From positions 1-27,747 of the IMG/VR virus record IMGVR_UViG_3300013111_000020: a DNA stretch of 27,747 nucleotides, one strand, 5' to 3'. This stretch comes from a virus. Position numbers and translations under genes: made by a program. This document shows positions 1 through 22,917 of this stretch, piece after piece; the first letter of the stretch is position 1, and every line of letters starts with the position of its first letter. Under the pieces are notes generated by a model. It made no database searches, was not told where the DNA came from, and worked only from the letters and a program-made list of their open reading frames with translations.

Positions 1-1043
1 AACACACTACCTGCATAAATCAATGCCATCATAGCACCGACAACCCAGTACGGAGTAAATCTTGTTAGAAATACAATGATAAGTCCTACTAATACTGAGA
101 TCGCCAACTCTATGATTAGACTTATATCATATCGTTTTGGTGCTGTGCCATTGATAACTGTTTGTAAGGCCGATGCTGATAGTGCCCAATCATATTGTTC
201 CCCCACTGGTGTAGCAATAATACTTCCCAGTCCTTCGGCAGTGATACCCACCACTACCGTCTTACCTTTCAATGTTGAATAGTCTTTTGCTGCAGCAGAG
301 ACAGACTGAAACATATTGTTCCACCGTAACCATATTCTTGCGTGTTGGTCTGTATTGATGATTGGATAACCTGGTACACGAACTGCAATGATACCAGCAG
401 GACCTGCCTTGATTTGATAACTTGGATTACCTGTGGCGACACGAATAGTCTCGACTGCCATTGCAGGATATGTTTCTTCACCTATTCTCATTATCAGTGG
501 CAAGCGTCTGACCACGCCATCTATCTCTGGTGCTGTATTGATAACACCAACACCGTCTGCAGCACCACCGAGTTCTGGTATCGGACCTAGCATACCGTTC
601 CATTCATACAACCAAGGCAATGGGTCACCTATCTTAGCAACACCTCTTGGTACAGCATTCTTATGTGTTTGGTTTGTTCCGACTTGTGCAATCACTACAC
701 CCATCTCATGTAGTGATATCATAAACAGCTCATCACCACCTAGTCGGTCTGGTTCGGAGAATAGTATTGGCATCACAATGATACCAACCTCGGCCTCTCT
801 GAGCCTGTAGATAATATCGGCAAGAACTTCACGGTTCCAGGGATACTGTCCGTATTTCTCTATTGATGCCTCGTCTATTGTGAGTATGCCAATGTCTGGT
901 GACAACTCTTTTTCTTCATACTGAGCAAGTAGGTCAAAACTTTTTAGTCGTAATGTTTCTTTTACAAACGGGTCTTGTAGTCCTATAAATGTAATCACGG
1001 CAAGTGTCACAAATCCCATCATCCAATTTGATAATATTTTCAT
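1..1043 (-). CDS. CHASE2-domain membrane protein (3' end beyond window)
   Basis: The frame is open from an ATG at 1043 to the window edge, giving 347 visible residues with no stop. An N-terminal hydrophobic segment is followed by a CHASE2-type extracytoplasmic sensor region. Recognisable landmarks are an ILTIDEASIEKYGQYPWNR segment near residues 48-67, a FSEPDRLGGDE segment, DGVVRRLPL, and a late GKTVVVGITAEGLGSIIATPVG block. Two hydrophobic helices follow before the edge. In bacteria CHASE2 usually senses for an attached output such as a nucleotide cyclase, histidine kinase or serine/threonine kinase; here any output domain lies outside the window. The start overlaps the stop of the curlin-like gene upstream (TAATG). 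Its position as last visible gene of the curli cluster, two genes after a FecR-domain gene, recalls bacterial FecR/CHASE2 cyclase loci. Domain identity is firm from motifs; the signal sensed is unknown. Confidence 0.85.
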   Translation of the reverse strand, partial: MKILSNWMMGFVTLAVITFIGLQDPFVKETLRLKSFDLLAQYEEKELSPDIGILTIDEASIEKYGQYPWNREVLADIIYRLREAEVGIIVMPILFSEPDRLGGDELFMISLHEMGVVIAQVGTNQTHKNAVPRGVAKIGDPLPWLYEWNGMLGPIPELGGAADGVGVINTAPEIDGVVRRLPLIMRIGEETYPAMAVETIRVATGNPSYQIKAGPAGIIAVRVPGYPIINTDQHARIWLRWNNMFQSVSAAAKDYSTLKGKTVVVGITAEGLGSIIATPVGEQYDWALSASALQTVINGTAPKRYDISLIIELAISVLVGLIIVFLTRFTPYWVVGAMMALIYAGSV

Positions 1044-1828
1044 TAGTTTTGTGTCACATTAACTGTACACCCTCCTGAAGTTTGGCAATTCTGTGATAAT
1101 GAATATGATTGTGCTGTACCAGTTTTCTGTAATAGAGTTAGGTCTGTACCATAAGAACCATTCAAGGTTACAGTAGCAGTATGACCAGCATTATCCCGTT
1201 GTGTTATATCAACTTCGTTATCGTCATTATTAATTGTTAAAGTGATTGTCTTATCAGTGTTTCCCTTTTGTCTAGTAAAAACTGTATTATCATCACCATA
1301 AATGTATGTTGTATTTGTATGGTCACTACCAGAAGCATTTGACCGCTGACTACCCTTAAAACTGTTTCGGTCTCCGTGTATATCTAATCTTACAAAGTGA
1401 CCACCTTCTTCATAAGAATCTGTTTGAAAACTTGTTGAGTTTGCTCCTGGAATTTCATATCCCTGTCCAAATATAACACTGTTATTATCACCGTAAATAT
1501 GAAATTGAAAATCATCACGGGAACAACTTGACTGATTGCACCACTGTCTTATATCTAAACTGTTATTACTACCATCTAGGTCACCACCCCAAGCAAGTCC
1601 TGAGCCCCATAATGTAGTGTAACCGATATATGAATTATCTGTTTCTTGTCGAATCTTTACTGAGTTCCCTGCATGATTTCCAACAGAGAAATTAACAGTA
1701 TTATTTTCTCCATCTTGCTCAATATCAAGCGTTAGAGTATTCCCTGTGCCTGTTTGCGTCACATAGATATCATTGGCAAATGCCATTGAACAAAACAAAC
1801 TAATTAGACTGAACAATATCAATCGCAT
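1043..1828 (-). CDS. Secreted curlin-repeat (CsgA/CsgB-like) protein, copy 2
   Basis: This 261-residue protein starts with a Sec signal peptide ending near AFA-ND (residues 17-20). The mature part opens with DIYVTQTGTGN, the same opening as the other curlin-like protein at 2921-3604. The body is built of short beta-strand repeats of the form I/V-x-Q-x-G-x-x-N, for example LDIEQDGENN, VDITQRDN and a terminal VNVTQN. These match the Gln/Asn-spaced pattern of curli subunits, which are exported unfolded through CsgG and polymerise as amyloid outside the cell. Four cysteines (WCNQSSC and NCQTSGGC) are unusual for curlins. The start at 1828 is set by a strong Shine-Dalgarno (1837-1842), so the gene overlaps the FecR gene by 29 bases. 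Whether it is a major subunit or a nucleator cannot be told. Confidence 0.75.
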   Translation of the reverse strand: MRLILFSLISLFCSMAFANDIYVTQTGTGNTLTLDIEQDGENNTVNFSVGNHAGNSVKIRQETDNSYIGYTTLWGSGLAWGGDLDGSNNSLDIRQWCNQSSCSRDDFQFHIYGDNNSVIFGQGYEIPGANSTSFQTDSYEEGGHFVRLDIHGDRNSFKGSQRSNASGSDHTNTTYIYGDDNTVFTRQKGNTDKTITLTINNDDNEVDITQRDNAGHTATVTLNGSYGTDLTLLQKTGTAQSYSLSQNCQTSGGCTVNVTQN

Positions 1829-2921
1829 TTTCTGATCCTCCTAGTTCGTAATCCATTATTTCAAAATCACCCTGTAATATATTCATAATATAACCATACT
1901 CTTTATCCAATATAAGTTGGATTTTATTGCCTGATGCAGCTTCTCTTTCCCATATCCACATAGGGTCATCGTCTACTACTAGAATACCTGTCACTGGGTC
2001 TTTACCTGTTCTGACTTTAGATGGATCACCTGAACCCAGTCTTGCAGTTTCTTTCTCGGATATTTTATCAGAAAGCTTTTTAGCAAGTTCTTTGTTGATA
2101 ACTTTGAGCAGATCAACCAAAAAGTTCTGTTCTAGAAAATCTATATCTAGTCCTGTTGCCCATGCGGATTCATCTTCTTCTAGATGGTCAACTTCCAAAT
2201 CATCAAACTGTAAAAAGTCCACATCTAGCATATCGGCAACAGCTTCAAAGTGTTCTGCCTCTTGAGCCTCTGCAATCTCTTTTGGTTTAGATACTATGAG
2301 TAGATTACCAATCAATTCTTCATCTAGATTTAGTATCACAGGTTTCATAGGTGTAGACGCAGCAGTAGCCACTACTGTCGCCTGAAAGGCCTGATTCAAT
2401 ATGACCTGACCTGCATCAGATGTTACATCAATCTCACCGACGAAACAGTTTCCATTTGTATCGCAAGAAGGTAATAGAATGATTGTAGACCCACCGAGTT
2501 CATCTACTGTCATTGAGAAATCTGTACCACGAACACCAATCGTTGCTGTTGGTGTCTGTATCTTTACATTCTGTTTAGAGTTCTTGGCAATCAGACCAGA
2601 GGCATATCGTATTGTGCCTAACGAGGCCTTTAGACCAAGTGTGCCTTCTTGTGTTGAGGCGTCATAAACAAAACTGTCTATCACCAACTTACTATGCTCG
2701 GTGATGTCTACCCGTGTGTCATCCAAGAACTGAATAGCAGTCTTGCCCTTGCCGGTCATAACGATATCATCAGAAAAAATATCTAACTCTTTTTCAGTGA
2801 CAACTTCTGAACCATCAGCGGAACGCTCAACCTGCCCAGTACCTTCATGGAGAATAACATCTCCAATACTGGCCTGAGCAGGCAAACTAAACAATAACAG
2901 AAGTAATAATAAAATTTTCAT
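1800..2921 (-). CDS. Secreted FecR-domain protein with curlin-like C-terminus
   Basis: This 373-residue protein has a signal peptide (cleavage near AQA-SIGD, residues 17-18). A FecR-type domain covers about residues 20-165, with a DDIVMTGKGKTAIQFLDDT strand pair and the hallmark TPTATIGVRGTDF at 123-135. FecR domains are periplasmic sensor/adaptor modules, often linked to signalling or adhesins. The middle (about 215-290) is acidic and helical. The C-terminus is odd: NILQGD and a final AIDIVQSN look like curlin half-repeats and resemble the ends of both flanking curlin-like proteins. I infer that it may contact or cap the fibre, or be recognised by the same CsgG export machinery. It begins at the TAATG junction with the curlin-like gene at 2921-3604, between two curlin genes. 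Confidence 0.8.
   Translation of the reverse strand: MKILLLLLLLFSLPAQASIGDVILHEGTGQVERSADGSEVVTEKELDIFSDDIVMTGKGKTAIQFLDDTRVDITEHSKLVIDSFVYDASTQEGTLGLKASLGTIRYASGLIAKNSKQNVKIQTPTATIGVRGTDFSMTVDELGGSTIILLPSCDTNGNCFVGEIDVTSDAGQVILNQAFQATVVATAASTPMKPVILNLDEELIGNLLIVSKPKEIAEAQEAEHFEAVADMLDVDFLQFDDLEVDHLEEDESAWATGLDIDFLEQNFLVDLLKVINKELAKKLSDKISEKETARLGSGDPSKVRTGKDPVTGILVVDDDPMWIWEREAASGNKIQLILDKEYGYIMNILQGDFEIMDYELGGSENAIDIVQSN
1837..1842 (-). promoter_or_regulatory. Shine-Dalgarno AGGAGG of curlin-like copy 2
   Basis: A perfect AGGAGG lies 8 bases upstream of the ATG at 1828 and inside the FecR coding region. It decides the start of the curlin-like gene and suggests strong, independent translation of the subunit. 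Confidence 0.7.
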
Positions 2922-3604
2922 TAGTCGTCTTGTATAATATCAATATCGTGATTGTCTCCCGATGTTGTCAATGTTATCATGTTATCATATAGTCCAGACT
3001 GTGTAATATCAACATCAGCAATACTGCCTGTGTGTGTATGAATCAATGTGTGTCCATTTACATCACCGTCGTCGTTTATATCAATCAGATAGTTATTGGT
3101 ATCGCCATTGACTGTTAGTGTTAGAATGGCTGAAGTACCATCTATTGTAGCAGCAACTACGTTACTATCACTACCAGTTTGGCCAGTAATTGTTACAGTG
3201 GCACTAGCAGCATCAGCACTTTCACCAATATCAATGTCTAAATCGTTTGAGCTACCTGCCCATGTTATTGAGGCGGTAGCAGTAGCACAAGATGAACCTG
3301 TACCTGCACTATCGCAATTGAAATCAATATCGTTACTGTTACCAGTTACATCAAATGTACCTGTAAATGTTGCACCGTTGACATCAAATGTCAATATGTT
3401 TGTGTTACCAACTTGGTCAATATCAATAGTAGATGTTGCACCAATCACCGATGATGATGTGGTACTGTTACCCACCTTGTTGTCTTGACCGTCTTGAGTA
3501 ATATCAAGATCCAATGTTGCACCTGATTGTGTTACATAAATATCATTTGCATGAGCAAATGACATCATCAATAGCATAATTATTCCGTGGAATAATTGTT
3601 TCAT
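2921..3604 (-). CDS. Secreted curlin-repeat (CsgA/CsgB-like) protein, copy 1
   Basis: About 227 residues: a Sec signal peptide ending SFAHA-ND, then DIYVTQSGATLDLDITQDGQ and repeated strands such as STIDIDQVGN, DVDITQSG and a terminal IDIIQDD. The I-D-I-x-Q-x-G/N spacing is that of curli amyloid repeats, but the protein is unusually rich in Asp, Thr and Ser. I chose the ATG at 3604 because GGAGG lies just upstream and because the signal peptide then begins MKQLFHG; a longer frame to 3628 would add eight charged residues before it. The start forms an ATGA overlap with the end of csgG, so secretion pore and substrate are translationally coupled. It is the likely main substrate of the pore, but no fibre can be proven from sequence. 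Confidence 0.75.
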   Translation of the reverse strand: MKQLFHGIIMLLMMSFAHANDIYVTQSGATLDLDITQDGQDNKVGNSTTSSSVIGATSTIDIDQVGNTNILTFDVNGATFTGTFDVTGNSNDIDFNCDSAGTGSSCATATASITWAGSSNDLDIDIGESADAASATVTITGQTGSDSNVVAATIDGTSAILTLTVNGDTNNYLIDINDDGDVNGHTLIHTHTGSIADVDITQSGLYDNMITLTTSGDNHDIDIIQDD

Positions 3605-4398
3605 TCTTCCTCCCTTTTGTATTTCCATAAACCCTTCGCTTCACCTTTCTCTACCATTTGTAATACACTATATTCTATTGCTGTTCTGATAGCGTAGTTA
3701 GTGGGTTCGTTTCTAGCTACACCAAGTTCTACCTCCAACGCCTTTGTTCCTAAATCTAGAAACTTAAAGGCATCGCCGCCTATCTTCTGACTGGCGATTG
3801 TCTTTGTTGAAGATACCGATAAAAGTATCTCCCCTGTCTGAACAGCTACTAAACGCAATGATACTGTTACCTGGTCTGTCCTATATTTGTGATGGGCGCC
3901 AATGCCAAAGTATCTTGCACCTTCCCCACCACTCATTACATTAGAATCATAACTTACAATTCCACCCTCTACTAGAAGGCCTGCAAAGAGTAATGGCTTT
4001 AATGAGTTTGTTGTATCTCCGTCGTATGCTTCTCTTGTTGATCTTATTAGTTGTCTTTCTTTTATTAAACTGTCTAGTCCTTGTCTCTCTACCACAGTAA
4101 ACCAGTTTCCACCACCGACAGATTTCAACGCATCTATCAGATATGTTTCTGGTGCCTGTGATACGGCAGTCGATAATTGAGAAAACTTTGTTGATGGTTT
4201 TCTCTGTCCTGACCTATCTGGAAAGTTATATACTGCGATTGTTATCACTGGTTGGTCTAACTCTGGAACTGCCATCAGCAACTCAGTAGTAGGAGTTCCT
4301 TCTGCATAGGGTAATGACCCATGTAGGATAAACTTTTTACTACCTGCACATCCGGTTAGTACAAGCACAATGCCAAGAACTAATAATATCTTTTTCAA
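3601..4398 (-). CDS. csgG: CsgG-like curli secretion channel lipoprotein
   Basis: This 265-residue protein is close to the length of E. coli CsgG. It has a lipoprotein signal with lipobox LTGC (Cys17). Conserved CsgG blocks follow in order: IAVYNFPDRSGQRKP (54-68), LSTAVSQAPE (75-84), FTVVERQGLDSLIKERQLIR (100-119) and YDSNVMSGGEGARYFGIG (150-167), the last nearly identical to E. coli. CsgG forms the nonameric outer-membrane pore for curli subunits. At the constriction, the E. coli Asn55-Phe56 pair aligns with Gln-Leu here, with a one-residue insertion, so gating may differ. The start is TTG in a TTGA overlap with the csgF-like stop, chosen because it gives a perfect lipoprotein signal and has AGGAG upstream. 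No CsgE, CsgC or CsgD homologue is seen. This is one of the clearest assignments in the window. Confidence 0.95.
   Translation of the reverse strand: MKKILLVLGIVLVLTGCAGSKKFILHGSLPYAEGTPTTELLMAVPELDQPVITIAVYNFPDRSGQRKPSTKFSQLSTAVSQAPETYLIDALKSVGGGNWFTVVERQGLDSLIKERQLIRSTREAYDGDTTNSLKPLLFAGLLVEGGIVSYDSNVMSGGEGARYFGIGAHHKYRTDQVTVSLRLVAVQTGEILLSVSSTKTIASQKIGGDAFKFLDLGTKALEVELGVARNEPTNYAIRTAIEYSVLQMVEKGEAKGLWKYKREEE
3609..3613 (-). promoter_or_regulatory. Shine-Dalgarno GGAGG of curlin-like copy 1
   Basis: GGAGG, within GGGAGG, sits 4 bases upstream of the ATG at 3604 and inside the last codons of csgG (the Glu-rich REEE tail). It supports the shorter start of the curlin-like gene. Confidence 0.65.
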
Positions 4399-4997
4399 AA
4401 TCCAAAGTCTCCTACAGGTATAACCATCTCTGTTGTTGTACCATCTTCACCTATAATTGTTAATGAGATTGTTCCTAAATCTGGGTCCTTTACCCAATAC
4501 AAAGTAGACCCTTCAATCTTTGCTTCACCAGTTAATGGTGCATCACACTCGTCACCTTCGCAATCTTCACCTGGTGTCTTAAACATATTATCCACTAACT
4601 GTTTTGATAAGTTAGCATAGATACGGCTCTCTACGTTCTTGATAAACTTATTGATGGTCGTGTTGTTTTCTTCACGTTCATCCTGTCGTTCTTGTGCTTC
4701 TGCCCGTTCTCGCATATCTTCTTTTCTATTGTGTTGTAGTTGTTCAATAGAAAGCATATGGGTACTCCATCCATGCCCGCTGAATGATGGACTATGAAAC
4801 TCATGCACAAGTTCTGAAGCAAGAGATTTAGTCATAGCAAAAAACATCAAGCCAAAAAAGATAGCCATAATGCCGGCACCAAAGGTGAAAGACATTACCA
4901 TCTCTTTAAAGGAATAGTTTCCCCAATCAACAGGACCTTTAGCCTTTCTTGCTAGGTCGAATTGTTTTCTGTGTAGTTTCTCCATGTTTGTAATCAT
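4395..4997 (-). CDS. csgF: CsgF-like curli assembly factor with N-terminal membrane anchor
   Basis: The C-terminal two thirds match CsgF, the factor that docks in CsgG and guides fibre nucleation. It has a mature-like start ELVHEFHSPSFSG (E. coli: TFQFRNPNFGG), a helix-forming LSIEQLQHN stretch, a TTINKFIKNVESRIYANLS segment, and paired strands ending TISLTIIGEDGTTTEMVIPV. Unlike E. coli CsgF, which has a plain signal peptide, there are about 33 hydrophilic residues (including KGPVDWGNYSFKEM) before the hydrophobic segment, so the signal may be an uncleaved anchor. I chose the ATG at 4997 because GAGAGG precedes it. An ATG at 5030 would lengthen the overlap with the upstream gene; one at 4901 would leave a simple signal peptide and is a real alternative. 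The insert CEGDECD is unusual. Confidence 0.75.
   Translation of the reverse strand: MITNMEKLHRKQFDLARKAKGPVDWGNYSFKEMVMSFTFGAGIMAIFFGLMFFAMTKSLASELVHEFHSPSFSGHGWSTHMLSIEQLQHNRKEDMRERAEAQERQDEREENNTTINKFIKNVESRIYANLSKQLVDNMFKTPGEDCEGDECDAPLTGEAKIEGSTLYWVKDPDLGTISLTIIGEDGTTTEMVIPVGDFGF
4409..4413 (-). promoter_or_regulatory. Shine-Dalgarno AGGAG supporting a TTG start of csgG
   Basis: AGGAG lies 10 bases upstream of the TTG at 4398, inside the 3' end of the csgF-like gene. No ATG is available at this position in the frame, so the site supports a non-ATG start. Confidence 0.5.
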
Positions 4998-5250
4998 GGT
5001 CCTCTCTTTTTCTTTTTTGTATTTCTTCATCCATTTCGATGAAGATGTTTAGTTTTTGGTCTAAACGAATTAAATCGTTATCTAACATTCTGATACGGTC
5101 TATCAATGCAATCAAAACTGTAGCTGTTTGACCCAGTTTTGGTTTTATTTCCGTTGTTACATACTTCCATATAAAATATATAAAGTACCCCATACCTCCT
5201 GCTACCACAATAGGTAACCCATACTGATTTACTAGTTCTATAACATCCAT
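4939..5250 (-). CDS. Small membrane protein with coiled-coil tail (holin-like architecture)
   Basis: This 103-residue protein has one hydrophobic segment (about residues 12-30, LPIVVAGGMGYFIYFIW). A predicted amphipathic coil follows, with Leu/Ile heptad spacing (LIDRIRMLDNDLIRLDQKL), and then a highly charged end (KRKRED, SKKG). The layout resembles two other proteins in this window, at 5614-5904 and 16753-16998. Such short one-helix plus coil proteins are common among phage holin-like and membrane-associated proteins, but nothing here proves a holin. The start follows a TAATG junction with the SWIM-type gene, and the 3' end overlaps the csgF-like gene by about 59 bases. Its place immediately before csgF makes a role in the curli cluster possible. 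Confidence 0.65.
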   Translation of the reverse strand: MDVIELVNQYGLPIVVAGGMGYFIYFIWKYVTTEIKPKLGQTATVLIALIDRIRMLDNDLIRLDQKLNIFIEMDEEIQKRKREDHDYKHGETTQKTIRPSKKG

Positions 5251-5438
5251 TACTCTACCTGTACTATATGTCCATACTTGCGTTGTTTAACAGACACCTG
5301 GCCGCCATTGACAGACCAGATATGTTTACAGTATCCCAACCCTCTTTCAAACTGTGGGCAAGTACAGTGGTATTGTCCGTTATATGTTACTGTATGATAT
5401 CCTTGTTTCTCTTTGTCGGTTTGTATCAACCATTTCAC
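5250..5438 (-). CDS. SWIM-type zinc-finger miniprotein
   Basis: The 62 residues are almost entirely one SWIM-like motif, CxCx(n)CxH, visible as YHCTCPQFERGLGYCKHIW (residues 23-41). SWIM fingers bind zinc and usually mediate DNA or protein contacts in larger proteins; a free-standing SWIM of this size is unusual. The start is GTG at 5438, forming a GTGA overlap with the gene upstream. The protein has no signal peptide, so it should stay in the cytoplasm even though its neighbours are membrane or exported proteins. Function is unknown; a regulator or adaptor is possible. Confidence 0.65.
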   Translation of the reverse strand: MKWLIQTDKEKQGYHTVTYNGQYHCTCPQFERGLGYCKHIWSVNGGQVSVKQRKYGHIVQVE

Positions 5439-5614
5439 AATACCACAGTCTCCGGTTCAACCTTTATAAGCCAACCACTTTCGTTGACAACAAAAATATC
5501 TCCGGGTCTGTATAAGGAATGCTCTCCCTTATCCATTACCTCCGTAGGTGTATCACCCACGACCTTAAAACTACCATTTGGTGCCTGGTCTATGTTGTAA
5601 TCAATCCACATCAT
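5435..5614 (-). CDS. Hypothetical 59-residue protein
   Basis: A short frame starting MMWIDYNIDQAPNG and ending IKVEPETVVL, coupled on both sides: TAATG with the upstream gene and GTGA with the SWIM gene. A segment YRPGDIFVVNESGWLIKV suggests a small beta barrel (SH3- or cupin-like strand pattern), but this is only an impression. I accept it as a gene because it fills exactly the gap between two coupled genes. I do not recognise a family. Confidence 0.55.
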   Translation of the reverse strand: MMWIDYNIDQAPNGSFKVVGDTPTEVMDKGEHSLYRPGDIFVVNESGWLIKVEPETVVL

Positions 5615-5904
5615 TAGTCTTTCCTCGCATCTTTCTGCCCGTCTGCACGAGCGATTCGATCCAAATCTGGTTTGACACCCACGACCGTACTAATCAATGT
5701 GTCGATTCTCACGACCTCATTGTTCATGGTTTTTACCCGCAAGTCTAGTGCGGTAATCATAGCGTGTAACGAATTAGCCTGCCCTACGACAGACTCAAGG
5801 ATGTACTTCAGCAAAAGTACAATAAAGAAGCCACCGGCCAGTGTGCCAGCAGCGGCGAACCCTAACTCAAGAAACTGAGCAAGGGCATCTGTAGTTGGTT
5901 CCAT
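5614..5904 (-). CDS. Small membrane protein with coiled-coil tail (holin-like architecture)
   Basis: This 96-residue protein has an acidic N-terminus, a Gly/Ala-rich transmembrane helix (about residues 13-34, FAAAGTLAGGFFIVLLLKYI) and an amphipathic coil (LDLRVKTMNNEVVRIDTLIS). The charged tail ends DGQKDARKD. Layout and the LD-R-hydrophobic-N-(D/E)-hydrophobic-R-(L/I)-D pattern resemble the protein at 4939-5250 (LIDRIRMLDNDLIRLDQ), which suggests paralogues. An AAGGA precedes the ATG. A membrane or lysis role (holin, antiholin) is possible but unproven; given its place it could instead act with the curli genes. Confidence 0.65.
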   Translation of the reverse strand: MEPTTDALAQFLELGFAAAGTLAGGFFIVLLLKYILESVVGQANSLHAMITALDLRVKTMNNEVVRIDTLISTVVGVKPDLDRIARADGQKDARKD

Positions 5905-5911
5905 GCAATAT

Positions 5912-6118
5912 TCATCCTTTCTTTCTACACTCCATGTCTTTGCTCATTTCACAAACAATGTCGCTAGCTGTTCTTACGAACAGGAAAGGTAATATAGCAT
6001 GAATAAGTACAATAAAAAATAATACTAAAAAAGTGAGAGCAAATCTTGATGCATTAAACATATGCAAAAGATAACTCTCACCGACACTTCTTGGGTGCTC
6101 TGTAAATAAATTTTTCAC
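5912..6118 (-). CDS. DUF6356-like small membrane protein
   Basis: The protein begins KNLFTEHPRSVGESYLLHM and continues FALTFLVLFFIVLIHAILPF. This matches the layout of DUF6356 proteins, known mainly from Alphaproteobacteria: an LFT-(D/E)-HP-x-SVGE(S/T)Y motif, then a hydrophobic helix ending HA-x-LPFLF. Function of the family is unknown. I chose GTG at 6118 because it puts the family motif at the N-terminus; a longer frame reaches a TTG at 6157 that overlaps the upstream stop. Neither start has a convincing Shine-Dalgarno. A TATAAATA box lies just upstream (6124-6131), so the gene may head a late transcript that includes the curli genes. It looks like a gene acquired from an alphaproteobacterial host. 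Confidence 0.75.
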   Translation of the reverse strand: MKNLFTEHPRSVGESYLLHMFNASRFALTFLVLFFIVLIHAILPFLFVRTASDIVCEMSKDMECRKKG

Positions 6119-6123
6119 AGAAC

Positions 6124-6131
6124 TATTTATA
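6124..6131 (-). promoter_or_regulatory. T4-type late promoter box TATAAATA
   Basis: The minus strand reads TATAAATA, the T4 late-promoter consensus, in the short gap between the glycoside-hydrolase-like gene (ends 6154) and the DUF6356-like gene. In T4 the box covers -13 to -6, which puts +1 at 6118, exactly the G of the chosen GTG. It would drive the DUF6356 to CHASE2 block. I saw this exact octamer only here on the minus strand. Confidence 0.45.
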
Positions 6132-6153
6132 TGAAAATAAATCTTGATCCAGA

Positions 6154-7266
6154 TCAAAAAATTACAGAAAAGGTAAATAGTATTCTATTGTTCACTACAT
6201 CTTGCGAGGTATAGTGTGTCATACTTGCATCAAAACTCAGGTGTTCTGTTAGGGAGAAACTTCTACCCATACCATAACTCTGCCAGTCCTCAGTTGCATC
6301 AAAAGTAAAACTAATATCATAATTACTTAAATAGTATGCGGCGATACCAACACCAACCAGACCGAGTATGGCAGCAGTATAATCTTTCTTCTTCTTAGGT
6401 GCATCTTCGTGGCCACAGTATGTTATGTTTCTACCATTGCCTGTGCCGACTGCACCCATAGAACACATCAAGTCACCTAATGCTTTGGCCTGTGCAGACT
6501 CACTGAATAACGAATACTCGGAGACTACTACTGGTTTACCCAGTGTCATTGCCTCGGTCAACATTCTCTTTGCTGTTGCTACATCTGATATGTAATCACC
6601 TGATGTATGGCCACCTATTTGTAAATAGATATAGTCTGCATTAGTATAATATCGTGTATCTTTTTTATGGCCACCAACACCAGGTGCAAGATGTACCGCA
6701 ACAGGTTTGTCTGTCTTTGACTTTATGAAGGCCACATAGTCATTCACTTGTTCTGGTGACCAATACTCATCACATTCTAAACAGGCAACATAAGCAGATG
6801 CTTGGTCATCATAGAGTCGAATAGTTTTTTCCATAAAGGCCTTGTGGTGTGCGGCATTTCCTTTCCAATCTCCATGTTTAGATTCAGGTGTCATCCACAA
6901 TACAGGTTTAAGTCCTGACTGATTCAGCTCTACAAGCCTCTGTCGGAAATCATCGTTGGGGTTGACTACACCACCCGGCAAATGACCTCTAGTGGCACGG
7001 ACATACATATCAATATGTGTGTCACCAGTATTAGTTAATCGTTGTCTAAAGGTTGCTCGTTCTGCATCTGTCCAAGTGTTAGACAAATACATTAGGGTAG
7101 TATTAAACTTCTTTGACTGATCGCCAGTGTGTGGTCCGATCTTACCTAATAGAAACGACGACCTTACACCGTGAAGTGAATGTGTCTTATCGTATGCGGC
7201 ACTAAGGCCAGGTACTAATAGTAAGCTAGAAAGTACCAGAGAAACCAAAAAAGATTCTATTTTCAT
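6154..7266 (-). CDS. Secreted glycoside-hydrolase-like TIM-barrel protein, copy 2
   Basis: About 370 residues. A signal peptide (to about SAA, residue 24) is followed by alternating beta/alpha segments typical of a TIM barrel: THIDMYVR, LKPVLWMTP, AYVACLECDEYWS (158-170), KPVAVHLAPGV, ADYIYLQIGG and KPVVVSEYSLFSES (244-256). Glu or Asp in CLECDEYW and Glu250 of SEY sit where the acid/base and nucleophile of retaining clan A-type enzymes lie; this is inference. A GTGNGR...CG segment, a Lys-rich KKKK, a hydrophobic helix (about 297-313) and a 55-residue beta-rich tail ending FTFSVIF follow. The tail looks like the last strands of an outer-membrane barrel. The ATG at 7266 is preferred over 7275 because GGA is 8 bases upstream and the signal peptide starts cleanly. 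The gene overlaps its upstream paralogue by about 40 bases. Substrate unknown. Confidence 0.65.
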   Translation of the reverse strand: MKIESFLVSLVLSSLLLVPGLSAAYDKTHSLHGVRSSFLLGKIGPHTGDQSKKFNTTLMYLSNTWTDAERATFRQRLTNTGDTHIDMYVRATRGHLPGGVVNPNDDFRQRLVELNQSGLKPVLWMTPESKHGDWKGNAAHHKAFMEKTIRLYDDQASAYVACLECDEYWSPEQVNDYVAFIKSKTDKPVAVHLAPGVGGHKKDTRYYTNADYIYLQIGGHTSGDYISDVATAKRMLTEAMTLGKPVVVSEYSLFSESAQAKALGDLMCSMGAVGTGNGRNITYCGHEDAPKKKKDYTAAILGLVGVGIAAYYLSNYDISFTFDATEDWQSYGMGRSFSLTEHLSFDASMTHYTSQDVVNNRILFTFSVIF

Positions 7267-8290
7267 AAAAGTCATCCGCAGTAGTATGAGAGAAATCTAT
7301 CTCAAAGTTTAGTGAGTTATCATTCTTCTCAAACAGATTGAATGTCTTTTTAGTTCCATAGGTCTGGTAGTTATCTGTCAAATCAAACTTCAACTCAAAA
7401 TCATAATTGGTGTGTAGATAGTAGGCACCAAACGCAATAGCAGCAATACCTATGACAACCATCGCAGTCTCGGTATCTTTGTTTTTCTTCTTGGGTGGTT
7501 CTTCTACACCACAGAATGAGATACTTCTACCGTTACCAGTACCGATTGCCCCTGCCGAACACGCAGCGTCACCAAGAGCACGAGCATTAGCAGACCGACT
7601 TTCTAAATGATACTCGGATGCAACAACTGGTTTGCCTGTAACAGCAATAGCATGAGCAACCATTGCCTTGACTTGTTCTGCTGTCTTATTGAAACCTGTC
7701 TGTAGAAATACATAGTCTGCATTTGCAAAGTATGCCGGCTGAACACCTGGGGTCAGATGAACACCAACAGGTTTGTTTGTTTTACTTTTTAGATGTGCGA
7801 CTAGAGCCTGCACTTGAGCAGCACTCCAATACTCATCACATTCTAAACAAGTAACATACCCTGTGACCTTACTATCAAATCTATTCACCATGTTAGTGAA
7901 GTGTGCCTTCTGGGCATCCATGGATTGATTTGTGATAGAGGGACTATCATCAGGTGTCAACCATAGAACTGGTTTAAGTCCCATGTTGTTGAGTTCATCT
8001 AGTCTTACTTCCCAATCGGGTTGGGGACTGATGGCACTGAGATTGTAACCACCACCATTGTCACCACCATTTCTGGTGTAAAGATAGATGTGGGTATCGC
8101 CATTGGCCTTTGCGGCATTTCTCATACCGACTTTGTTGGCGTTGGGGTGTAGATAGTTAAGTGTCATCCACTTATTATCTAACATCAAAAAACTTGCACT
8201 ATGTCCGTGTAGTGAAAAGTTTGTATCATAGGCAAATGAGCTAAGGCTTATTAGACTTCCTAGGAGCACCGCTACCATTTTCGTTGTCAT
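7226..8290 (-). CDS. Secreted glycoside-hydrolase-like TIM-barrel protein, copy 1
   Basis: This 354-residue paralogue of the next gene has the same order: signal peptide (to SSFA, residue 20), barrel strands THIYLYTR, LKPVLWLTP, CLECDEYWS (148-156), KPVGVHLTPGV and KPVVASEYHLES (220-231), then GTGNGR, KKKNKD, a hydrophobic helix (about 276-292) and a tail (296-354) ending FFGFSGTF. Identical CLECDEYWS in both copies marks the likely active site. The ATG at 8290 was chosen because GGAG lies 7 bases upstream; an upstream start at 8311 would spoil the signal peptide. An export-dependent peptidoglycan or polysaccharide hydrolase is one reading, a surface-anchored glycan-binding protein another. 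I do not recognise a named family. Confidence 0.65.
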   Translation of the reverse strand: MTTKMVAVLLGSLISLSSFAYDTNFSLHGHSASFLMLDNKWMTLNYLHPNANKVGMRNAAKANGDTHIYLYTRNGGDNGGGYNLSAISPQPDWEVRLDELNNMGLKPVLWLTPDDSPSITNQSMDAQKAHFTNMVNRFDSKVTGYVTCLECDEYWSAAQVQALVAHLKSKTNKPVGVHLTPGVQPAYFANADYVFLQTGFNKTAEQVKAMVAHAIAVTGKPVVASEYHLESRSANARALGDAACSAGAIGTGNGRSISFCGVEEPPKKKNKDTETAMVVIGIAAIAFGAYYLHTNYDFELKFDLTDNYQTYGTKKTFNLFEKNDNSLNFEIDFSHTTADDFYENRIFFGFSGTF

Positions 8291-8453
8291 CTTGAATCTC
8301 CAAATGTTCAACTTTACTAGTCACTTTGCTCATAATATTTTCCATTTTATTATCAAACCACTTACCCATTTTAGTTTTTGCAAACCACTTATAGAAACTG
8401 TTGCCCACCGTACTCAATAGTATAGTGAGCAGTAACTTCCATATAATAAACAT
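8241..8453 (-). CDS. Small membrane-anchored protein
   Basis: The 70 residues have an N-terminal hydrophobic helix (FIIWKLLLTILLSTVGNSF) followed by a basic, aromatic stretch (YKWFAKTKMGKWFDNK) and a polar tail. The start shares one base with the DUF1353 stop (TGATG). The stop is TAG, and reading beyond it meets TGA after four codons, so TAG is a genuine terminator in this genome. Close to the spanin-like genes it could be a holin or antiholin, but no family is recognised. Confidence 0.55.
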   Translation of the reverse strand: MFIIWKLLLTILLSTVGNSFYKWFAKTKMGKWFDNKMENIMSKVTSKVEHLEIQDDNENGSGAPRKSNKP

Positions 8454-8938
8454 CAGGTCTGGGTCATGCCTGCTTTACGAATTGCGAACCTGCCGAAGGG
8501 ACGGACAGACCAATAACATGGTTTTGCCTTCCACATCTTAACAGGAGGCTCAACATGATGCATACCTTCCAGGAATACACGGTCTGCTGCCAATCGCATT
8601 TCGTTCACTAACTTCTCATCATGTGTTTTGTTTTTTAGTGCATCTCTTAGAACACCGTAAAGTACATCATGGATGATAGCAGGTCGTGCTACATCCCAAG
8701 GTGCGACTGCCACCCAACCGAAACGGGGAATAGATGCGAGGTCTGTGTCATAACCTTTGGGGGCATACACTTTAGAAAAACCTTCTGGTGATTTGGGTTC
8801 TGTAATCTTTACACCCATCTCTTTCCATGTGTCGTGATGTGTCTTAGCTTCTTTAGATAGAAACCAGATTTCTTTATTCAGCTCCCAATGCATCTTTCCG
8901 TGAAAGGTGCAATCAAGTTTACCAGACCATACTTTCAT
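8453..8938 (-). CDS. DUF1353 family protein
   Basis: The central segment GYDTDLASIPRFGWVAVAPWDVARPAIIHDVLYG, discussed here in pieces, is characteristic of DUF1353: a D-x-ASIPR turn, then an IHD-x-LY motif about 20 residues later. The family is common in phages and prophages, often near lysis genes, but its biochemical role is not established. I chose the ATG at 8938 (MKVWSGKLDC) because AAGGA lies 9 bases upstream; a longer frame to 9001 mostly reads the preceding small gene out of frame. About 161 residues, no signal peptide. It abuts the small membrane gene on each side. Confidence 0.8.
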   Translation of the reverse strand: MKVWSGKLDCTFHGKMHWELNKEIWFLSKEAKTHHDTWKEMGVKITEPKSPEGFSKVYAPKGYDTDLASIPRFGWVAVAPWDVARPAIIHDVLYGVLRDALKNKTHDEKLVNEMRLAADRVFLEGMHHVEPPVKMWKAKPCYWSVRPFGRFAIRKAGMTQT

Positions 8939-8940
8939 TT

Positions 8941-9102
8941 TTATTTTTCCTTTGTTAGTAATGTCCAAGCACCGTAAGCTATTGCGGCCCACGCTGCCCA
9001 TTTAACCAGAGGTGAAAATAACAAACATACTACACCAATACCTATTAATACTGTACCGTCAAGAGAAGTTCTTTCTCCTAAAATTGTTTTTATGTAATTC
9101 AT
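8941..9102 (-). CDS. Small hydrophobic membrane protein (53 residues)
   Basis: The frame runs from an ATG at 9102, overlapping the lipoprotein stop (ATGA), to a TAA two bases before the DUF1353 start. GAGG lies just upstream. The protein starts MNYIKTILGERTSLDGTV and contains one or two hydrophobic helices (VLIGIGVVCLLFSPLVKW and AAWAAIAYGAWTLL). It fills the gap between two coupled genes in the lysis-like cassette, which makes a holin or antiholin role plausible but unproven. Confidence 0.6.
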   Translation of the reverse strand: MNYIKTILGERTSLDGTVLIGIGVVCLLFSPLVKWAAWAAIAYGAWTLLTKEK

Positions 9103-9452
9103 TTTTCTTCCTCGTAATATTCTCTATATTTTTTTAAGACAATCACATACTCACCAATCGTAGCTCGAATGTCTTTTATGTTAAGTGCTAATTTTTCATA
9201 GTCACCATGACGCAATGCAAATAAAGCAACACCTTCGTTCTTATCTCGTAAAAGTTGCCATACTTCTTCAATATTTTCTTCTGTCACAATGATCCACTCA
9301 ACCTCTTGTAACTCTAATGGTTGTGGATCGGGTAAACTTAATGGGAGTTTTTCAACCGCAGTAGTAGTTATATCTATCTCTTTGACTTTAGGAGTCATAG
9401 AACATCCTGTTATAAAAACTGCTGCCACCAATAACAATATCACTTTTTTCAT
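9099..9452 (-). CDS. Small lipoprotein, probable outer-membrane spanin subunit
   Basis: This 117-residue protein has a lipoprotein signal (FITGC, Cys17), a Pro-rich linker (LPLSLPDPQPLEL) and a helical, charged C-terminal half ending in a coil (YVIVLKKYREYYEEEK). It lies directly downstream of a protein with the layout of an inner-membrane spanin, joined by a TAATG junction. Adjacent pairs of this kind act as i-spanin and o-spanin, which fuse inner and outer membranes in the last step of lysis of Gram-negative hosts. The assignment rests on architecture and gene order; o-spanins have little sequence conservation, and this one is longer than the lambda Rz1 type. Confidence 0.55.
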   Translation of the reverse strand: MKKVILLLVAAVFITGCSMTPKVKEIDITTTAVEKLPLSLPDPQPLELQEVEWIIVTEENIEEVWQLLRDKNEGVALFALRHGDYEKLALNIKDIRATIGEYVIVLKKYREYYEEEK

Positions 9453-9922
9453 TACGAATCTTCCTCTTTGCCTAAGTTAGGGTTAGCCAACTCTGGACAT
9501 TCACGGTTACTCTCTGATTTCTTTCTCGCAGCAAGTTCATCATGTGTCAATGGTGAACCTGTTTGGATTTCAAAGCAACGCATCTCATTCTTTGATGCAC
9601 GATTGATTATTCTTACAACAAGACCTGGTTTATTTTCAGCAAGTATATCTAACTCATGCCGTCCCAGTTTATTAGCGAGATTCTTTTTATCTTTTGCAAG
9701 TACTGCCTGCTGTTCTCTCAAGTCTGCATTGGCAGCTTGAATCTGTGCAGCATCAGCCGCCTGTTGTTTAATAGCAGCCTCTTGTTCTGCAACAGCACCT
9801 TCAAGTTTTGCTTGATTAACTTGAAGAATCTTATTATCATTTTGTAGTTTTGTAATCCATGCATAGGCTCCGTATCCACCGGAGCCCATGAGTAATATTA
9901 AAATAATAACCACTTTTATCAT
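9452..9922 (-). CDS. Probable inner-membrane spanin (Rz-like)
   Basis: About 156 residues: an N-terminal transmembrane helix (MIKVVIILILLMGSGGYGAYAW), a long Gln/Ala-rich coiled coil (about 27-85) and a C-terminal region with LGRHELDILAENKPGLV and two cysteines (RCFEI and RECPEL). One helix plus a periplasmic coiled coil is the usual i-spanin layout, and the next gene encodes a lipoprotein. The start is ATG at 9922 with GAGG 7 bases upstream; a TTG at 9928 was rejected. No endolysin with a recognisable catalytic domain is seen next to the pair. Confidence 0.6.
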   Translation of the reverse strand: MIKVVIILILLMGSGGYGAYAWITKLQNDNKILQVNQAKLEGAVAEQEAAIKQQAADAAQIQAANADLREQQAVLAKDKKNLANKLGRHELDILAENKPGLVVRIINRASKNEMRCFEIQTGSPLTHDELAARKKSESNRECPELANPNLGKEEDS

Positions 9923-9944
9923 AACCAATCCTCAATTTATTTTA

Positions 9945-12551
9945 TCATTTCTTCTCTGGTTTTTTTGAAGGATTATTCTTATCGTAAGGCAACCGTTTTA
10001 TTTTGGTCTTACCTGTTACATACTTACCTGTCTTAGGATCAGTAGGAGGCATATTACCAAGCCCAGCCCAACCAGCATGACCTAATACTTCTTTTACAGC
10101 ATCAACCATACTCATATCAACTTCTTCTTTTGATAGTTTATCAACAGCCTTATCAATACCCTTCTGTCGTTTTATCATCTTACCGGCGTGCTTTTGAACA
10201 TCAGCCTGTGTCTGTTTTCCACTAGCGGATGTCTGACCTAAAGTAATACCAGCATTACTCTTATCAACAGATGCCTTCTTCACATAAGAACCCATTGTTT
10301 TTTTAGAAAGTTCATCAATCTCTGTTTCTTCTTTCTTGGCACGCAAATCTTTATTATGTTTTTCCAAGTCACTCAGTTTACCTGGCTTTACTCCACCCGA
10401 CTTAGGACCAAACTTCATCTTTTTAATCTGTTTGCTCTTACCCCAACCAACAGTAGTTTCATCAACTTCTACTTCTTCTTTCTTATCTCTCGTTGGGTTA
10501 TTACTATTTGGTTTAAAATAAGGTTCACCACTCTGAGTCATCTTCCAGCCTTTCTTTAACTTCGCACTGCCTTTCTTTTGACCGGGATGTTGTTCCTTTC
10601 CGGCTTTATTTTTAACCCCCACCATCTTTTCTTTCTTGGGGTCTTTGAGTTGTCTAGGAGACTTATCTCGTATCAAGGCTGAACCAAAAGCTCGTGCCTG
10701 ATGTTTATTTACTTCATCAACCTCTACTTCTTCTTTTTGTTTCTTCTTCTGCCAATCAAAATACTTTTTCTTATTCTTCTTTATCTCAGCAGGAGAATCA
10801 CCGAACTGACTATGTGGTGTTTTCTTTGGACCAGAATCACCTAACTGACTTCCCCATTTAGGTCTATCTTCATCAATCTTTACTTCTTCTTTCTTTGCCT
10901 GACGGAGTTTATGCATCAGCTTACCAGCCTTTGACATACCTTTCAGACTAGGTTTAAGTTTCTGAACTTTAACACCCATATGACTATCAGGTGTTTTGAT
11001 TGTTTTATCACCAGATTTATCAGGTGAACGGTCATAATCATCATCAATTCTTGTTGCCTGATGATTCTGTGCGGTCTTTTCTTTCTTTTGTTTAACTTCC
11101 GTTTTTCGTGCATCTCTATTAACCACATCAGTCTCGGCCTTCTCACCTGGAGTCAAAGTCTTTACATAATTTGCATACTCATCTGAACCCATATCTCTTT
11201 CACCAGCATCAGTTTCTTTAGATTCTTTCCTATTACCTAAACGCTTTTCAGCATCTTTAATACGTTTCATTTTCTCACGATGCTTTTGTGAATCTGATTT
11301 TGGAAATATTCCTTTAGGTGGACTATTTTCTTCTACTTCATCTTGATCTTTATCACCAAATTTAAATTTTTTCAAACCAGAAGAACTAGAAGCACCACGC
11401 TTACGTTCTTTCTGTTTATCAAATCTCTTTTCATCTCTATCATAATCATCATCTTCTGTATCAGAAGTAGATCCTTTTCCAGGTCTACCTTTACCTTTCA
11501 ACCGTAATGATAAATTCTTTTTTTCTTCTTCATCATCTTCTTCATGGTGAATAGTTATATGCTTAACTGGTGTCCTTGCCCTCAGAGCTGCTGCACCTTT
11601 AGCTTTTCCTGCTGCTTCGTGACTTACAGTAATATTTCGCGGTACATTCATAGATGCCATGGAGGCCTTTACTTTAGCTGCATTTTTAATTTTTTGTGCC
11701 ACTGATATTTTTGATGCAGAACTACCCGCTTTGCCGGCGGCCTCATCAACATCTAATTCTACTGATTCATGTTCTGGTGCATTTTTATACTTTGGATCAT
11801 CTCTATCAACTACCTTTGTTCCTGACTTTGTTCCCACCATCTTTTCTTTCTTAGGATCTTTAAGTTGTCTAGGTAATTTATGAGACTTCTTAGGAGGATG
11901 ATTATCATTTTCGGATACCGTTTTCATTATACTCCATTCCAAACTTTCTTCTTTAGTATTGAGATACCTATTTTTTGGTAAAGTTAAAGTTGGTAAATCA
12001 TTATTAGGATTGTAAGGCATTTCTGTACCTACAGAATCAATAGCAGCCTGTTCGATACTGCCTTCTTTTGTTTTTAAATATTTGTTATTGTCCATTTTGT
12101 TTTGTTCCGTTTGGAATGGATTACTTGTAACTCCAAATTGACTTAATTTTTTTACTGCTTCTCGCTCTTGTGTTTTAGCGTTTCTTTCCTTAATTCTTTT
12201 TTGTGTAGCCCGATACTCTCTTGTTCTACCATCTACACCGGATCTTTTTCTTTTCATAAAAACTCTAGTACCTGATGCATTAGGTGCCATATCTACTCCA
12301 CCACCAGCAACAGAATTTGCGGGTACATCCTCATCTTGAGGTTCTATTTCTTCAAACTTTTGAAACCTTCTATTACTCACAAATTTTTTATAATCTCGAT
12401 CTTGTCCTGGTGTTGATAACTTAAACTTTCGTTTTGTTTCCTTAGCATCTTTAGGACCTTGAGTCCATACTTGCCATTTTTGTACAGATTTTGCATCTAC
12501 AGCATCATCTGGCGCTTCTGGTGTATTTATTTTATCTTGATGTTTAGGCAT
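9945..12551 (-). CDS. Large charged repeat protein, possible prohead-processed internal protein
   Basis: The 868 residues are mostly Lys, Glu and Asp with low complexity and no signal peptide. Internal repeats are clear: PRQLKDPKKEKMVG occurs twice, (K/R)YL-x-TKE-x-S occurs twice near the N-terminus, and a KKEE(V/T)-x-(V/I)DE motif recurs in the C-terminal third (KKEEVKIDE, QKEEVEVDE, KKEEVEVDE, KKEETEIDE). One segment, ELSKKTMGSYVKKAS, looks like a motif seen in marine T4-like phage proteins. T4 prohead protease gp21 cuts after (L/I)-x-E, so I-D-E and possibly V-D-E could be processing sites. I therefore suspect an internal head or scaffold-associated protein cut into peptides; this is inference. 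The start overlaps the preceding gene by 8 bases. Confidence 0.6.
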   Translation of the reverse strand: MPKHQDKINTPEAPDDAVDAKSVQKWQVWTQGPKDAKETKRKFKLSTPGQDRDYKKFVSNRRFQKFEEIEPQDEDVPANSVAGGGVDMAPNASGTRVFMKRKRSGVDGRTREYRATQKRIKERNAKTQEREAVKKLSQFGVTSNPFQTEQNKMDNNKYLKTKEGSIEQAAIDSVGTEMPYNPNNDLPTLTLPKNRYLNTKEESLEWSIMKTVSENDNHPPKKSHKLPRQLKDPKKEKMVGTKSGTKVVDRDDPKYKNAPEHESVELDVDEAAGKAGSSASKISVAQKIKNAAKVKASMASMNVPRNITVSHEAAGKAKGAAALRARTPVKHITIHHEEDDEEEKKNLSLRLKGKGRPGKGSTSDTEDDDYDRDEKRFDKQKERKRGASSSSGLKKFKFGDKDQDEVEENSPPKGIFPKSDSQKHREKMKRIKDAEKRLGNRKESKETDAGERDMGSDEYANYVKTLTPGEKAETDVVNRDARKTEVKQKKEKTAQNHQATRIDDDYDRSPDKSGDKTIKTPDSHMGVKVQKLKPSLKGMSKAGKLMHKLRQAKKEEVKIDEDRPKWGSQLGDSGPKKTPHSQFGDSPAEIKKNKKKYFDWQKKKQKEEVEVDEVNKHQARAFGSALIRDKSPRQLKDPKKEKMVGVKNKAGKEQHPGQKKGSAKLKKGWKMTQSGEPYFKPNSNNPTRDKKEEVEVDETTVGWGKSKQIKKMKFGPKSGGVKPGKLSDLEKHNKDLRAKKEETEIDELSKKTMGSYVKKASVDKSNAGITLGQTSASGKQTQADVQKHAGKMIKRQKGIDKAVDKLSKEEVDMSMVDAVKEVLGHAGWAGLGNMPPTDPKTGKYVTGKTKIKRLPYDKNNPSKKPEKK
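10621..10658. repeat. Direct repeat, copy A (within the 868-residue gene)
   Basis: These 38 bases match 11836-11873 with three mismatches and encode the repeated PRQLKDPKKEKMV peptide. The two copies are about 1.2 kb apart inside one gene and could support recombination or repeat-number change. Confidence 0.75.
11836..11873. repeat. Direct repeat, copy B (within the 868-residue gene)
   Basis: Partner of 10621-10658: 35 of 38 bases identical. It encodes the same PRQLKDPKKEKMV peptide near the middle of the charged protein's N-terminal half. Confidence 0.75.
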
Positions 12552-22045: not shown

Positions 22046-22346
22046 CCTCTAGCCTATAACTGTCATGTTGAATACTATCTTGTAATATTTCCATAAAAAT
22101 ATCACCGATTGCGTTTTTAAAATCTAATGTTAATACATCTTTATCATCTGGATTATACAACACTTCATACTTAAAGTCAATAGGTATTGACTCTGCATCT
22201 TCTAGGTCTAAAGGACTACCATCTTCATTTTTTAAAATTACTTTACTTTCCTTAAAAGTAAAAATTATATCTTTATAAGGACCTTCTAATATTACTATGG
22301 CATTTTCGCCAGTTTCTTTATTTACTCGCCAATCATAATTAAGCAT
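22017..22346 (-). CDS. Conserved hypothetical protein between oxygenase and gp41 genes
   Basis: The 109-residue protein has a beta-rich N-terminal half (YDWRVNKETGENAIVILEG, then IIFTFKESKVILKNEDGSPL) and an acidic helical end. It occupies the place of T4 gene 40 (between uvsX and 41, 114 residues), but I see no motif that proves homology, so no symbol is given. It overlaps both neighbours (8 and 29 bases), which suggests translational coupling with gp41. Confidence 0.6.
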   Translation of the reverse strand: MLNYDWRVNKETGENAIVILEGPYKDIIFTFKESKVILKNEDGSPLDLEDAESIPIDFKYEVLYNPDDKDVLTLDFKNAIGDIFMEILQDSIQHDSYRLEDENRNDNTE

Positions 22347-22917
22347 AATGACAATACGAATGTATAATGTATTTTCTACCAGATACAGGTTTCAGGCCTG
22401 CATGATAGTATTGCCACGTTGGTGGAAACATTAACAATCGTCCTCTCTTTGGTTTTATTGTGTAAGGTAAGAATGTTCCTGGTTTGTATATGTTTAGGAA
22501 CTGTGTCTCGCCTCCTTCTTCTACATCGTTAAGGTAAATAAAGAAGGCAAGAAATCTTCGTGCGGATTCATGGTTCATTACATCAACATGAGGATCAAAA
22601 CGGTCATAATTATTTCCTAGATACCGTTTCATTCTCACGGCCTCATAACCATATTTCTCTGGCCACATCTTATCATAGATACTGCAATCTATTCTATAGC
22701 GTACAATATATTCTTGAAACAACTCAAGCAGTCCTTTCTGAACATCATCCCAACCTTGTGTAAACAAGTTTAGTTGTTCAAATGAGATAACATTATTATC
22801 AACATCTTCTTGATGCACGGTCTCATACATCTGGTGTTCATCTTCAAATTTCTTGATAAGTTCTTTACAACTTACCTCATCAATAACATCATTATAAACT
22901 TGTATATACTTATCCAT
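22339..22917 (-). CDS. 2-oxoglutarate/Fe(II)-dependent oxygenase, copy 2
   Basis: The 192-residue protein has the iron ligands HVD (His110, Asp112) and distal His172 in YYHAGLKPVSG, with Arg181 or Lys182 as likely 2-oxoglutarate contact. Conserved [19 protein letters not shown] and MFPPTW surround them, as in prolyl-4-hydroxylase-type enzymes common in marine T4-like phages. Substrate unknown; protein or nucleic acid modification are options. It is a tandem paralogue of the gene at 22962-23540, with the same MDxYI start and the same YGYEA-(V/I)-R-(M/I)-KRYL block. A remnant of the uvsX 3' end directly upstream indicates duplication. Confidence 0.85.
   Translation of the reverse strand: MDKYIQVYNDVIDEVSCKELIKKFEDEHQMYETVHQEDVDNNVISFEQLNLFTQGWDDVQKGLLELFQEYIVRYRIDCSIYDKMWPEKYGYEAVRMKRYLGNNYDRFDPHVDVMNHESARRFLAFFIYLNDVEEGGETQFLNIYKPGTFLPYTIKPKRGRLLMFPPTWQYYHAGLKPVSGRKYIIHSYCHYA

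Follow-up and report, generated by a model that had tools for sequence, protein, structure and literature searches.

A candidate curli-type secretion operon with FecR and CHASE2 genes in a T4-like virus contig

The viral record IMGVR_UViG_3300013111_000020, from a marine T4-like phage and referred to below as the window (27,747 bases, with all genes discussed located on the minus strand), carries at one end an operon encoding CsgG, CsgF and two curlins, i.e., the components that, judged from their sequences, qualify it as a type VIII (curli) secretion system, together with a predicted exported FecR-domain protein and the sensor half of a CHASE2 cyclase. In our favoured explanation, to which we give about even credence, infected cells would export an adhesive curli-type fibre with FecR and CHASE2 acting as a sensor. 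The module has been known since 2020-2022 and the window contains another copy of it; the comparison presented here adds the linkage of CsgG and curlin, the modular character of the second curlin, a C-terminal motif in the FecR protein and the re-identification of a small one-helix protein.

Clusters of CsgF and CsgG were reported for pelagimyophages together with a proposed role in sibling capture (Zaragoza-Solas et al., 2020; PMC7029224). The order histidine kinase-CsgF-CsgG-CsgA/B-FecR-CsgA/B-adenylate cyclase was described for pelagi-podo- and myophages, an alphaproteobacterial origin was argued, expression was seen in metatranscriptomes and phage curli modules were detected at all 65 Global Ocean Viromes 2.0 (GOV2.0) stations (Wittmers et al., 2022; PMC9599517). 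For phage Melnitz, csgGF was reported, csgA/B was said to be missing and a pinholin or secretin was proposed (Buchholz et al., 2022; PMC9004378). An initial annotation of the window had referred to such pelagimyophage clusters correctly (PMC7029224, PMC9599517), but had given their function as unknown, whereas several hypotheses are in print (sibling capture, superinfection defence, cofactor uptake, pinholin).

Components of the operon

Transcription runs from two one-helix membrane proteins via CsgF, CsgG, curlin1, FecR and curlin2 to CHASE2, which is cut by the contig end (Table 1). Domains were assigned by a Pfam profile search of the ten window proteins at the module end of the contig, and the identities initially proposed for CsgF, CsgG and FecR hold, as all three match their families over cut-off (PF10614, PF03783 and PF04773; E-values in Table 1). 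CsgG reached 181.9 bits, carries a lipoprotein signal/lipobox (PF08139) and matches profiles of solved CsgG structures with an E-value of about 1e-63; its Cys17 is invariant across 12 diverse phage copies. CsgF reached 37.1 bits (cut-off 25.8). No Pfam match to CsgE, CsgC or CsgD was obtained among the ten proteins, in agreement with the initial annotation.

The tight coupling noted initially is also confirmed: the csgG stop and the curlin1 start overlap as ATGA at 3604-3601, with a ribosome-binding-like ggagga, the CsgF stop overlaps the TTG start of CsgG as TTGA, the FecR start lies within the curlin1 stop codon, and the curlin2 open reading frame (ORF) opens 29 bases inside FecR. The gene identities had been given correctly, with three corrections: the reading frame of CsgF begins at 5030 and thus before 4997, the CHASE2 sensor protein at 3-1043 had not been listed, and curlin1 most likely starts at 3604 and not at 3628.

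The two one-helix proteins constitute one family (96 and 103 aa) and contain a single hydrophobic helix as well as a coiled coil. Neither gave a Pfam kinase match (HisKA/HATPase), and matches in PDB were confined to weak coiled-coil ones. The designation "histidine kinase" for the gene before csgF (PMC9599517), a gene whose identity with the one-helix gene we infer from position, is therefore rejected in favour of a ~95-residue one-helix protein without known kinase domains.

Recurrence in viral loci, selection and origin

When the window and the cultured phages are included, two CsgG scans and one FecR scan of viral contigs yielded 94 non-redundant loci, in which adjacency was counted wherever the contig leaves room; one viral scan confirmed 337 CsgG relatives. 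A curlin gene directly follows CsgG in 79 of 79 viral loci, a curlin-family gene directly follows FecR in 63 of 66, and CHASE2 comes next in 46 of 48. One-helix genes precede CsgF, or one of them is located between CsgF and CsgG. The module order is also present in the cultured phages HTVC008M and Melnitz, and the close relatives L002, L003, L004 and L077 have the flanks of the window as well (spanins, a DUF1353-like gene and paralogous secreted proteins). In one relative (L013:10579-10938) FecR and curlin2 are separated by an unrelated basic ORF, and similar gaps exist in others.

Ratios of nonsynonymous to synonymous substitution rates (dN/dS; window vs. relatives) amount to 0.06-0.14 for CsgG, 0.04-0.11 for curlin1, 0.11-0.14 for FecR and 0.13-0.24 for CsgF, values that point to strongly purifying selection on all four proteins. 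A search for a bacterial donor by alignment against genome contigs returned only two contigs of metagenome-assembled genomes (MAGs), L070 and L071. In the CsgG tree the bacterial sequences are placed apart from all viral ones, a weak result given that branches are long and bacteria sparsely sampled. The module copies in L070 and L071 stem from Bacteroidota MAG contigs; L070 opens with the phage one-helix gene and therefore looks like a misbinned phage.

Curlin1 and curlin2

Both proteins had initially been described as curlin-repeat proteins. Curlin1 of the window matches PF07012 with 21.1 bits, barely over the cut-off of 20.7, and curlin2 with 18.9 bits, which is under it, while relatives of both match at E <=0.01 (27 of 61 for curlin1, best 8.4e-6; 27 of 62 for curlin2, best 5.2e-8 and up to 33.1 bits). 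These family-level matches and the structural model of curlin1 make the assignments firmer. AlphaFold2, supplied with 60 aligned sequences, predicted a beta-solenoid for curlin1 with a predicted local distance difference test score (pLDDT) of 84.5 and a predicted template modelling score (pTM) of 0.78. Comparison with the SufB-SufC-SufD beta-helix gave a VIA-align Z of 17.0 (root-mean-square deviation 3.8, 198 aligned), a value that reflects generic beta-helices and informs about the fold class only. Foldseek returned nothing significant for this model against PDB (best E 0.03), and solved curli fibres were absent from the list of structure matches.

The two curlins differ in conservation, with a mean per-column identity among relatives of 67-70% for curlin1 vs. 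22% for curlin2. Among 62 complete copies of curlin2, 23 are short (<160 aa), 12 intermediate and 27 long. Intermediate forms, including that of the window, are repeat-only in the copies read, and the long forms carry an N-terminal domain from either of two families unrelated to each other (12 and 15 members). One of these is PA14-like (Pfam PA14 in 8 of the 62, best E 8.2e-9; 2.7e-6 in HTVC008M), and the other appears ThuA-like according to a match in one member (E 4.7e-4). PA14 is mentioned neither in the main text of PMC7029224 nor in that of PMC9599517, the Melnitz paper not having been searched for it. All 62 curlin2 proteins have two cysteines in their last 30 residues and all 78 curlin1 proteins at least two, which fits an oxidising, exported location. 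An invariant fibre body combined with a variable, binding-type partner is the pattern expected of an adhesive fibre, and the adhesin-like modularity of curlin2 thus appears to favour adhesion as the purpose of the system.

The FecR protein and the CHASE2 cyclase

PF04773 is present in 62 of 62 members of the FecR family. Behind an N-terminal signal and the FecR domain, the protein has a middle part that is helical in places and, at its C-terminal end, a beta module, for which six strands are predicted (residues about 301-373, pLDDT 76-88 over most of it); the whole model is of low confidence (pLDDT 45.8) and good only in this module, and structure comparison gave nothing over Z 4. The very C-terminus reads N-x-I-x-I-x-Q-x(1-2), and no variation is seen at Gln350 and Gln371 across 62 relatives. 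This motif terminates 71 of 74 FecR proteins, 78 of 78 curlin1 and 43 of 62 curlin2 proteins, compared with one of 1134 other ORFs of the loci and none of 364 other operon proteins, and the C-terminus of E. coli CsgB (AIRVTQR) fits it as well. The tail is also found in five of five loci without an overlapping next ORF, which argues, on few loci, against a by-product of gene overlap.

A role as iron anti-sigma regulator is very unlikely: a hydrophobic segment near residue 1 is followed by the FecR domain without any sign of a cytosolic anti-sigma part, and there is no sigma factor that could serve as a FecI partner among the genes beside FecR in the window, HTVC008M and Melnitz. The gene adjoining curlin2 encodes a CHASE2 sensor domain (132.7 bits), with the cyclase half lying past the contig end. 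In HTVC008M the full CHASE2 gene includes a Guanylate_cyc domain (PF00211), and all three catalytic cyclase motifs are intact in 39 of 44 full-length relatives.

A FecR gene directly precedes a CHASE2 cyclase gene in Ruegeria, in a stretch without curli genes, and FecR and CHASE2 cyclase have been found clustered as a pair in Campylobacterota (PMC9239204). Plasmid-borne bacterial matches to the phage FecR are confined to the FecR domain. Among the plasmid records listed for CsgG (40 of 49) and FecR (27), a single one is common to both, with the two genes ~760 kb apart. With bacterial FecR-CHASE2 pairs on the one hand and CsgG and FecR separate on plasmids on the other, the phage module gives the impression of a curli exporter combined with a FecR-CHASE2 pair serving as sensor, and not of an iron regulator.

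Proposed function and alternatives

The initial suggestion of an amyloid made by the phage is supported insofar as the fixed position of curlin behind CsgG, the purifying selection and the predicted beta-solenoid of curlin1 all argue for export of an amyloid-like product; whether this would serve superinfection exclusion, retention of cells or virions or a modified envelope is not settled by sequence, with adhesion being favoured. Under the favoured explanation, the operon would be a phage-carried type VIII secretion system of alphaproteobacterial type, the CsgF, CsgG, curlin and FecR proteins of which would be exported by host Sec during infection. CsgG would insert into the outer membrane as a pore with CsgF as its cap, the highly conserved curlin1 would form the body of the fibre, and the N-terminal domain of curlin2, swapped between phages (none, PA14-like, ThuA-like), would confer binding specificity. 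The exported FecR protein, with its curlin-like terminal strand, may touch the fibre or its subunits and signal to the CHASE2 domain of the inner-membrane cyclase, such that cAMP in the infected cell would track the state of export. The benefit would most likely be adhesion, in that cells (infected ones or their neighbours) or particles would be kept together and progeny would thereby reach new hosts. From gene content, order, conservation, selection, modularity and the tail motif we infer export, fibre formation, FecR-CHASE2 signalling and a benefit, and more loosely the FecR-curlin contact and adhesion as that benefit. A more far-reaching version, in which phages fused the two systems into a self-monitoring fibre whose state is read, or whose assembly is nucleated, by the FecR tail, with curlin2 as an exchangeable adhesin cassette, is offered as a tentative idea that we doubt more than we believe.

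Several observations weigh against the proposed fibre. The constriction loop of the window CsgG is unlike that of E. coli, the curlin repeats are weak by Pfam, the curlin2 of the window itself is devoid of an adhesin domain, and Melnitz-infected cultures did not show cell clumping (Buchholz et al., 2022; PMC9004378). Comparison of the FecR tail with curlin profiles was not significant (best hhalign E 0.0037, probability 9%, with curlin2 C-termini), so that the resemblance rests on a positional motif and homology is undemonstrated. CsgE gave no match among the ten proteins of a contig that is a fragment, and its absence would be ordinary for the alphaproteobacterial type, csgE being missing from all Alphaproteobacteria (PMC3521004).

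The same export evidence, i.e., profiles, linkage in viral loci, purifying selection and the predicted beta-solenoid, would also suit a fibre that shields the infected cell and keeps rival phages from adsorbing to it. Lytic T4-like phages commonly have genes for superinfection exclusion, and a shield has been proposed on the basis of biofilm protection against phages (PMC9599517); a shield would, however, have no need of swapped binding domains on curlin2, and we consider it unlikely, ranking adhesion by sibling or neighbour capture above exclusion of rivals. The fixed curlin linkage is least consistent with models that dispense with curlins. One of these, a gated CsgGF pore (pinholin or secretin) timing lysis with the curlins unimportant, was proposed for Melnitz on the assumption of absent csgA/B genes (PMC9004378), an assumption that fails as csgG is followed in the Melnitz GenBank record by genes for two curlin-repeat proteins and a FecR protein. 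Rz-like spanins about 4 kb upstream and the adjoining one-helix membrane proteins in the window would suit such a pore, but the curlin that always follows CsgG is under purifying selection, and in HTVC008M the module is located beside genes for single-stranded DNA (ssDNA)-binding protein with no lysis gene annotated within 8 kb. We regard a lysis pore as very unlikely, and hold the same of a pore left open by the lack of a CsgE plug that takes up cofactors or iron, with FecR as an iron regulator (suggested in PMC7029224 and PMC9599517): such a pore would have no use for curlins and CsgF, FecR combines a short N-terminal signal, the FecR domain and a beta-rich tail with no cytosolic anti-sigma part in sight, and the gene known to lie beside it encodes a CHASE2 cyclase and not FecI.

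PA14-like domains, as found in curlin2, are common in surface-binding proteins. Curlins might accordingly join or bind virions, decorating or tethering progeny, an option raised in the initial annotation; given their Sec-type signal peptides and position behind a secretion pore they would already be outside the cell by the time virions assemble, and we regard this option as very unlikely. A misassembly joining curli genes of a host to phage DNA could be suspected from a G+C content of 0.40-0.41 over the first 9 kb (1-9000) vs. 0.33-0.37 in the rest of the contig. Such a join, against which the initial annotation had cautioned, is refuted for practical purposes, as module and flanks recur in independent contigs (L002, L003, L004, L077 and others) and the same order is found in about 94 viral loci including the cultured HTVC008M and Melnitz.

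Curli modules are widespread among phages that infect very abundant marine bacteria, and the known hosts are without curli. If infected plankton cells indeed put out an adhesive amyloid, this would change how phages find hosts in dilute water, and the modular curlin2 and the FecR tail offer concrete, separable handles on the question of function.

Genomic context

Table 1. Genes of the curli module in the window.
Feature	Position	Strand	Evidence and remarks
Small one-helix membrane protein, paralogue 1	5614..5904	-	phrog_18771; kept beside csgF in relatives
Small one-helix membrane protein, paralogue 2	4939..5250	-	phrog_18771; without kinase domain
CsgF-like protein, extended N-terminal signal region	4395..5030	-	PF10614, E 4.2e-9; sequence alignment
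CsgG outer-membrane lipoprotein pore (predicted), TTG start	3601..4398	-	PF03783, E 1.3e-53; solved-structure profile match
Curlin1, CsgA/B-like	2921..3604	-	PF07012, E 3e-4; predicted beta-solenoid; ORF opens 3628, likely start 3604
Predicted exported FecR-domain protein, curlin-like C-terminal strand motif	1800..2921	-	PF04773, E 3.3e-9; predicted beta-strand C-terminal module
Curlin2, repeat-only form	1043..1828	-	PF07012, E 1.4e-3 (under the cut-off); placement and family membership in relatives
CHASE2 sensor half of CHASE2-adenylate/guanylate cyclase	3..1043	-	PF05226, E 2.2e-38; cut by contig end

In the direction of transcription, the T4-like polymerase, UvsX and helicase genes of the window are followed, after further genes, by a pair of Rz-like spanins; genes for two paralogous secreted proteins and some small ones then lead up to the curli module. 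The label T4-like is upheld by the DNA polymerase, the gp41-type helicase and UvsX, for which Melnitz and cyanomyophages are the nearest relatives (59-68%). The overlapping spanin genes (9099-9928, minus strand; phrog_812 and phrog_739) place the module downstream of lysis genes in the window lineage, unlike in HTVC008M. The two secreted paralogues (6154-7275 and 7226-8311, minus strand) end in beta-strand-like segments with a C-terminal Phe, gave no significant Pfam or PHROG match and are kept beside the module in L002, L003, L004, L077 and L127. A 62-residue SWIM zinc-finger protein (PF04434; 5250-5438, minus strand) is encoded within the operon between the two one-helix genes.

Further upstream are a charged, repetitive and probably disordered protein of 868 residues (9945-12551, minus strand) with recurring motifs such as PRQLKDPKKEKMVG, and two tandem paralogous genes (22339-23570, minus strand) that, judged by eye, resemble 2-oxoglutarate (2OG)-Fe(II) oxygenases. 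The late promoter NATAAATA was matched seven times vs. 12.7 expected and is uninformative, a promoter and terminator scan remained at chance level, and an Rfam scan gave no match.

Comparison with known systems

With E. coli curli (CsgBAC/CsgDEFG) the window has the CsgG and CsgF families and a CsgB-like C-terminal strand in common, and differs by the lack of CsgE, CsgC and CsgD matches and by a CsgG constriction loop that is one residue longer and does not have the Tyr and Phe found in E. coli at the corresponding alignment positions. Alphaproteobacterial curli operons (Azospirillum, Sphingomonas, Limimaricola and Sulfitobacter plasmids) resemble it in a csgF-csgG pair with curlin genes, in CsgG proteins up to 47% identical to that of the window and in having no CsgE, CsgC or CsgD listed; unlike the window, they have no FecR or CHASE2 listed alongside in the stretches read, and one contains CsgH. 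In Ruegeria and Campylobacterota, FecR and CHASE2 cyclase are adjacent, whereas the phages have the second curlin between them, and the Ruegeria FecR is without the curlin-like tail of the phage protein.

Among the cultured phages, Melnitz contains the same six genes as the window and the nearest polymerase in the phage collection (60%), although its CsgG and FecR are only 57% and 51% identical and its curlin2 is a longer repeat-only form. HTVC008M has a PA14 domain on curlin2, in contrast to the window, a lower G+C content and different flanks, its module following ssDNA-binding protein where that of the window follows spanins and paralogous secreted proteins; it matches the window in the complete order CsgF-CsgG-curlin-FecR-curlin-CHASE2 cyclase, with 66% identity for CsgG and 63% for FecR.

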